Source: Cytophagales bacterium (GTDB lineage: Bacteria > Bacteroidota > Bacteroidia > Cytophagales > Amoebophilaceae). Taken from it: a DNA stretch of 11,976 nt. Below the pieces are notes generated by a model, which did not search any database, had not been told where the DNA came from, and was given only the letters and a program-made list of their open reading frames with translations. The stretch lies in the NCBI GenBank assembly GCA_022360235.1, contig JAKSDE010000367.1, positions 1 to 11,976 of the forward strand. The letters run 5' to 3'. A program made the translations under genes and the position numbers. This document shows, piece by piece, positions 251 through 2,203 of the stretch. Numbering within the stretch: position 1 is the first letter of the stretch; each line of letters starts with the position of its first letter.

Positions 251-292
251 AACTAGGAACTAAGAACTCGGAACCCGGAACTAAGAACTCGG
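251..292 (+). repeat. Six-unit heptamer array upstream of rplC
   Basis: Six heptamers lie head to tail without a break: AACTAGG, AACTAAG, AACTCGG, AACCCGG, AACTAAG, AACTCGG. Each begins with AAC, and one (AACCCGG) is identical to a unit of the large array between rplW and rplB. The units are more diverged than in the large array and lie in the same orientation. The array ends 24 bp before the -33 element of the rplC promoter candidate. Confidence 0.85.
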
Positions 293-1990: not shown

Positions 1991-2200
1991 TACTAGAAAC
2001 CCGGAACTCAGAACTCAGAACTCAGAACTCAGAACCCGGAACTCAGAACTAGAAACCCGGAACTCAGAACCCGGAACTCAGAACTAGAAACCCGGAACTC
2101 AGAACTAGAAACCCGGAACTCAGAACCCGGAACTCAGAACTAGAAACCCGGAACTCAGAACTAGAAACCCGGAACTCAGAACCCGGAACTCAGAACTAGA
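1991..2200 (+). repeat. 30-unit phased heptamer array between rplW and rplB
   Basis: The 210 bp are exactly 30 consecutive heptamers with no insertion or deletion. Three kinds occur: a = AACTCAG (13 copies), b = AACCCGG (10), c = AACTAGA (7, the first with T for A at base 1991). Their order is cbaaaaba, then cbaba, cba, cbaba, cba, cbaba, c. From 2047 this makes a perfect 56-bp higher-order unit (cbabacba) at 2047-2102 and 2103-2158, with 42 bp of a third copy to 2200. GC is about 49 percent, above the flanking genes. Unit c carries TAG and its palindrome CTAG, which puts stops on both strands, and the 7-bp period breaks the reading frame, so the array is not coding. It ends 3 bp before the rplB ATG. 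Confidence 0.97.
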
Positions 2201-2203
2201 AAT

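Follow-up and report, generated by a model that had tools for sequence, protein, structure and literature searches.

The junction between the ribosomal protein genes rplW and rplB in a draft genome of a Cytophagales bacterium (family Amoebophilaceae) is occupied by an array of heptamers that is real and of the same kind as known bacterial heptamer minisatellites. In our view it is probably (at roughly 70%) a local copy of a minisatellite that is dispersed genome-wide and specific to the lineage, tolerated in an essential operon and having no dedicated function. The units are new, and many of the arrays are carried by a MITE-like element; the unusual points are the density of arrays in one small genome and the position of this one inside the S10 operon. 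The case places a variable minisatellite in an operon that ranks among the most conserved in bacteria, and the genes on either side of it are still open.

The array between rplW and rplB

The window, i.e. the whole stretch of DNA analysed, is 11,976 nucleotides long. The array lies at positions 1991–2200 on the forward strand and consists of an edge unit, TACTAGA, and 29 AACNNNN units of three types (13 AACTCAG, 10 AACCCGG and 6 AACTAGA), without a single slip of phase. Thirty in-phase heptamers of three types, varying at four of the seven positions, had been proposed from the sequence, and both statements were borne out by a recount; the tandem period of 7 bp is maintained far beyond chance length, as in a long simple sequence repeat (minisatellite). 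On the 5′ side the array is preceded by rplW (L23; 1690–1980, forward strand; Pfam PF00276), and on the 3′ side it is followed by the bases AAT and then, three bases past the last full unit, by the ATG of rplB (L2; 2204–3028, forward strand; PF00181 and PF03947). The original prediction considered the junction unusually long, which agrees with the median gap of 11 bp across 80 named Bacteroidota loci, all of which have rplW upstream of rplB and 79 of which have a gap of at most 118 bp (479 bp in the remaining one).

Both ends of the array fall within an 8-bp direct repeat, ACTAGAAA, the left copy of which bounds the array at 1992–1999 and the right copy at 2195–2202 (both on the forward strand). 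Deletion of everything between the two copies would leave a junction of 20 bp, which in view of the above median is ordinary for Bacteroidota; before an insertion at ACTAGAAA, the array-free junction would have read TTTTACTAGAAATATG. A target-site duplication as a general mark of such arrays was rejected: among the 19 arrays with unique flanks a repeat of 8 bp is present solely at rplW–rplB, the bounding repeats of the other 18 measuring 0–3 bp, with no excess over permuted flanks for the set (p = 0.11). We thus regard the 8-bp repeat as a suggestive mark for this site alone. The draft genome comprises 1,871,772 bases in 528 contigs, of which 101 (583,594 bases, or 31% of the genome; 68 of them picked for bearing arrays) were read. 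Within these 31% of the genome, neither a MITE flank nor any dispersed repeat other than the array itself was found around 1991–2203, and the array does not lie between two ends of the MITE-like element described below.

The order of the units carries further information. Tandem Repeats Finder reports a period of 56 bp (eight units) with a 97% match, and units eight places apart agree in 90% of cases versus 52% in shuffles (p = 0.003). Significant unit order was detected in 7 of the 28 arrays of at least 12 units; that the other 21 show none says little in either direction, because a fragmented draft may have lost arrays whose blocks are long and perfect. When arrays of at least eight units were pooled, the correlation of types was strongest at lag 3, with odds ratios of 4.8 for position 4 and 2.4 for position 6, lag correlations being partly raised by array-to-array differences in composition (for position 4, at other lags), and position 6 tended to alternate between neighbouring units (odds ratio 0.36). 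The copying of blocks envisaged in the original prediction is supported by the lag-8 order together with the pooled lag-3 correlation, and we read the lag patterns as block duplication after the arrival of the array. AACTAGA is enriched at this locus (6 of 29 units versus 8 of 1,066 elsewhere in the contigs read), and its enrichment and the 56-bp higher-order repeat indicate that the rplW–rplB copy grew in place. The array probably began when another array recombined with a short native match, ACTAGAAA, in a junction of ordinary length (about 20 bp), or when template switching linked the two. It then grew by duplication of units in blocks at rplW–rplB itself, and probably persisted because its sense strand adds to the operon mRNA no unusual structure, recognisable promoter or terminator.

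The heptamer family and its carriers

The original prediction knew of no match to these units, which is incorrect as far as the same genome is concerned. Six AACs at 7-nt spacing occur there in 603 overlapping windows (421 forward and 182 reverse) as compared with none for the reversed pattern, which excludes chance. The contigs read contain many arrays, 124 of at least three units, totalling 1,095 units; 43 of these arrays are four units long and the longest comprises 48. The units follow the rule AAC-Y-N-R-N, with a pyrimidine at position 4 in 1,067 of the 1,095 and a purine at position 6 in equally many, and four of them (AACTCAG, AACTCGG, AACCCAG and AACCCGG) account for 794. A tandem-repeat scan of the same contigs returned 145 loci, 69 of them overlapping arrays; the sole period-7 locus outside the arrays, TGAGTTC, is an array unit in another register, and 17 others have periods of 14, 21 or 42. 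No plasmid relatives of the rplW–rplB array were found, and viral contigs yielded eight stretches of arrays of the same unit. The genes next to ten arrays of 18–48 units look, when read by eye, like recJ, truA, mltG, polA, hemH, uvrD, fumC, dapB, dapF and other housekeeping genes. Two arrays in contig C229 (6287–6464) are inverted relative to each other and separated by 10 bp, and a similar inverted pair is present in a relative, genome G350 (locus L302, 627–689).

The window itself contains a second array of the same family, six AACNNNN units following TATCGA (251–292, forward strand), upstream of rplC (L3; 424–1056, forward strand; PF00297). At the very start of the contig, also upstream of rplC, repeat matches reveal a fragment of a dispersed MITE-like element on the reverse strand (1–218), with 30 matches in the other contigs read and an identity of 82–93% in the 24 listed. 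Because the contig starts inside this reverse-oriented repeat, the gene preceding rplC sits on another contig; in most Bacteroidota that gene is rpsJ. Neither of these two features, nor the genome-wide occurrence of the units or the 56-bp period, had been noticed in the original prediction. Eight frames of the window were identified by Pfam (rplC, rplD, rplW, rplB, rpsS, rpsC, secY and a map-like gene), the S10/spc region contributes additional frames, and a search of the whole window against Rfam at the gathering threshold gave no match to a known structured RNA or ribosomal protein leader.

Most arrays are associated with other repeats. A total of 104 arrays are bordered by 50 bp or more on each side. 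For 85 of these, one flank or both can be found again in the contigs read (the left one only in 47 cases, the right one only in 4, both in 34), and for 19 neither can, recurrence being judged within 31% of the genome and some recurring flanks possibly representing decayed array sequence. The best-defined carrier starts with AGTCGNCCCTTAACAAGTATT, extends over some 200–380 bp to CCCCTATCGA, continues with the array and terminates some 35 bp further on, at AAAATAGCACCATCGAGCGTTATTAAGGGTCGACT or near it. It is MITE-like, with the TIR AGTCGNCCCTTAA (about 13 bp) and the array about 35 bp from one (the right) end. Its left-end composite was recorded at no fewer than 40 sites genome-wide; of 85 candidates, 40 were scored. 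Ten inverted pairs of ends lie within 6 kb of each other, eight of them 202–481 bp apart and two 4.1 and 4.6 kb apart; an array is held by five of the eight short TIR-bounded intervals, so that the family does include short elements with an internal array. In the 4.1- and 4.6-kb intervals, as represented in the contigs read, no transposase-like frame was recognised by eye, the frames looking like ordinary genes. According to a simple motif test, the left or the right module accompanies 46 of the 124 arrays, and both accompany 14. Judging from this layout, the carrier resembles a MITE that harbours a minisatellite, in the manner of BrickBuilt (see below). In addition, among arrays whose left flank recurs and whose right flank does not, several unrelated dispersed modules, ending in CCTATCGA, GGACCTAA, GGACACAC and GTCGCACCGA, stop at the array start, which makes these arrays look as if they were junctions between repeats. 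The genome makes it possible to compare the spread of a MITE, the seeding of arrays and block expansion for one repeat family at more than 100 sites.

Relatives, other Bacteroidota and known repeat systems

The comparison of the rplW–rplB junction suggested by the original prediction could be made for 18 of 20 family relatives, whose gaps range from −1 to 158 bp and never contain the array; a run of four AACNNNN units is likewise absent from the rplB loci of all 20. Ordinary junctions in close relatives, combined with the absence of heptamer arrays elsewhere, had been named as a sign that would speak against the feature; such junctions were indeed seen, but arrays elsewhere abound in the same genome. 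A six-AAC run was found in one of the 20 other family genomes, as a perfect array of a different unit, AACAGAA. At the scale of the phylum, five consecutive AACYNRN units occur in 112 of 395 Bacteroidota genomes and five of the transposed pattern AACRNYN in 56 of 395 (the present genome not among them), with the reversed-pattern controls of both surveys also matching in a number of genomes. Among the matches listed the units differ between genomes (e.g. AACYTGA, AACTCAT and AACYAAC), six-AAC runs were present in 12 of the 26 genomes reached from the named loci, and in 400 kb of the relative G350 the period-7 arrays include AACYTGA and also other units such as AGTCGAA, TTTAGAT and GCTTTAG. That AACYNRN holds universally is contradicted by the AACRNYN arrays and by the other heptamers of G350; across the phylum the pattern amounts to a preference, which is near-strict only in the present genome.

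Two of the 80 named rplB loci bear AAC arrays of at least four units, both on the sense strand. In a Dysgonamonadaceae MAG (locus L109, 214–255), six AACYTAA units end 8 nt before rplB, i.e. at the same junction in another lineage. In Pedobacter cryophilus (locus L064, 5774–5801), four AACNNNN units directly precede an rpmC-like start near rplB, the gene having been identified by reading. In other genomes, such as G354, G085 and G283, AAC recurs every 7 nt before an ATG but nearly every unit has different letters at the remaining four positions, and runs of this type are not easily accounted for by slippage alone.

One of the two closest precedents is the family of TAACTGA direct repeats described from Beggiatoaceae, cyanobacteria and five Bacteroidetes. 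They reach 43 copies in some species, and one Beggiatoaceae genome has sets of them ahead of the genes for S1, L3, S4 and S21 (PMC4679880). Like the arrays reported here, they are heptamers with an AAC core that occur at many places in a genome, some of them in ribosomal protein operons just before start codons (PMC4679880). As described there, however, TAACTGA is one favoured unit present in 2–6 copies per set in BOGUAY, whereas our arrays have variable AACYNRN units in up to 48 copies, and the sense-strand placement just before start codons that is the rule for the BOGUAY sets (PMC4679880) is rare here (5 of 109 arrays within 12 nt of a long frame), even if the rplW–rplB array itself conforms to it. 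The units at rplW–rplB differ from TAACTGA, and AACTGAN is outside the 40 commonest of the 1,095 units, single AACTGAG and AACTGAT units being found at array edges in the genome.

The other, BrickBuilt of Porphyromonas gingivalis, a minisatellite inside a MITE, resembles the present family in being a multi-copy, intergenic element of a member of Bacteroidota with an internal tandem array; further points in common are a leader and a tail, ends formed by small inverted repeats, and putative target duplications that vary in length (PMC4596501). According to the same description (PMC4596501) its unit is 23 bp rather than 7 bp long and its host is different; the rplW–rplB array, moreover, is not inside a MITE copy. 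The Xanthomonas GGGANTN and Nostoc GGGGA(C/T)T repeats are similar in their period of 7, mainly intergenic location, variable positions and length variation, but, as reported, they are G-rich with quadruplex potential, have another unit and belong to other phyla (PMC4692102). Within the Amoebophilaceae, MITECca01 of Cardinium cOegib likewise reaches a high copy number in a small Bacteroidota genome rich in repeats; it differs in being about 240 bp long and derived from IS982, and the word "tandem" does not appear in the main text of the report (PMC9769881). No report of the rplW–rplB array or of its unit strings was found in the literature searched, the scope of which did not extend to most subscription journals.

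Orientation, expression signals and alternative explanations

To describe the placement of arrays we relied on crude gene calls (open frames of at least 80 codons), which left 44 of the 124 arrays with no called frame on one side and put 11 inside a frame. Between co-directional frames, 23 arrays run with the genes versus 16 against them (p = 0.34). Convergent frames are separated by 24 arrays and divergent ones by 6, the corresponding numbers of array-free gaps being 38 and 44 (Fisher p = 0.002), and this excess in the former and scarcity in the latter fits insertions tolerated away from promoters. Any ATG is found within 12 nt on the sense side of 19 of 109 arrays and on the antisense side of 8; for an ATG that opens a long frame the numbers are 5 and 1 (p = 0.22), with 5 versus 2 within 25 nt and 6 versus 3 within 40 nt (n = 104). 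Across the genome, places where an array meets an ATG number 26 in sense and 7 in antisense. The rplW–rplB array folds no better than shuffles on the sense strand (z = 0.10) and much better on the antisense strand (z = −5.0), and three terminator-like hairpins, versus 1.1 expected, are confined to the latter. With the sense strand free of unusual structure and hairpins only on the antisense strand, the forward orientation is the harmless one for the operon mRNA. No sigma-70-like promoter was found by a scan that does not cover Bacteroidota promoters. A general rule of sense arrays before ATGs was discarded on the basis of the 5 versus 1 long-frame ATGs and of the phylum-wide survey (175 of 395 Bacteroidota genomes in sense versus 184 of 395 in antisense, the latter number being too high wherever the unit, as read on the GTT strand, includes an ATG of its own), and an interpretation of the AAC cores as integron attC sites was set aside after inspection by eye. 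Tests for a shared regulatory role have thus been mostly negative, and the selection for a binding pattern considered in the original prediction is unsupported by the orientation counts, the convergent enrichment and the few long-frame sense ATGs.

The array might still be a cis element of the S10 mRNA or DNA, its AAC sites binding an RNA- or DNA-binding protein or providing an unstructured standby site and so tuning the translation of L2, much as a regulatory role has been proposed for the TAACTGA repeats of Beggiatoaceae (PMC4679880). We consider this unlikely. It would account for the array ending three bases before the rplB ATG, for the less structured sense strand, for the preponderance of sense ATGs near arrays in this genome, and for the independent sense arrays before rplB in the Dysgonamonadaceae MAG and before rpmC in P. 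cryophilus, which the tolerated-minisatellite explanation has to leave as coincidence and which, like the Beggiatoaceae sets before ribosomal protein genes, keep a regulatory reading alive without establishing it. It is at odds with the scarcity of long-frame ATGs abutted in sense, the near-equal sense and antisense counts across the phylum (the inflated antisense count notwithstanding), the lack of a same-orientation excess in co-directional gaps and the absence of the array from the family relatives measured. A broader proposal, that arrays with AAC every 7 nt form a recurrent Bacteroidota class that enters ribosomal protein operons in sense just before starts and acts as an unstructured, protein-bound spacer whose length tunes ribosomal protein output, draws on the sites at rplB (here and in the Dysgonamonadaceae MAG), rpmC in Pedobacter and L3 in Beggiatoaceae, and seems to us quite improbable. 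A tolerated minisatellite, which we favour, has its own difficulties: the rplW–rplB copy is free of a MITE flank, the bounding repeat is not general, no parental transposase was recognised in the two long TIR-bounded intervals, and ATGs of any kind lie within 12 nt more commonly in sense than in antisense.

That the array is an assembly artefact, being either absent in reality or the product of a misjoin of two array-ended contigs, is very unlikely, the expected neighbours being present on both sides in the order and proximity typical of the named loci, which makes a misjoin improbable, and arrays of the same family adjoining all ten housekeeping-like loci inspected. What does speak for such an origin is the fragmentation into 528 contigs, the location of 15 of the 124 arrays no more than 10 nt from where a contig ends, the near-identical 56-bp blocks, which are hard for short reads, and, at the start of one contig (C263, 1–21), an adapter-like tail that leads straight into a 45-unit array. 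We take this tail to be an Illumina adapter and see in it a sign of untrimmed short reads. Since the assembly breaks up at such arrays and was apparently built from short reads, the exact number of units is uncertain, and the copy number of the rplW–rplB array may well be wrong. Equally improbable is a dedicated templated process (a reverse transcriptase or site-specific insertion of an element) under which AAC stays constant while positions 4 and 6 can vary; the independence of these positions within core units (p = 0.39), the varied dispersed modules ending at array starts and the 47 of 104 arrays with a recurring left flank only would suit it, but ordinary block duplication is what the correlations at lags 3 and 8 suggest, AACRNYN arrays exist at half the frequency of AACYNRN ones, other heptamers occur in the relative G350, and no enzyme was identified.

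The arrays also point to one reason why contigs break, and odd reading frames arise, in draft genomes of this kind. For the four main units, the period of 7 leaves all three forward frames open. In contig C82 (5922–6124), a 29-unit array is read through in frame and forms the C-terminus, an NPELGTR-like tail, of a ferrochelatase-like (hemH-like) frame, and in contig C460 (6949–7479) a frame read as rnpA opens with an array-coded NPELGTQ-like stretch ahead of its usual start.
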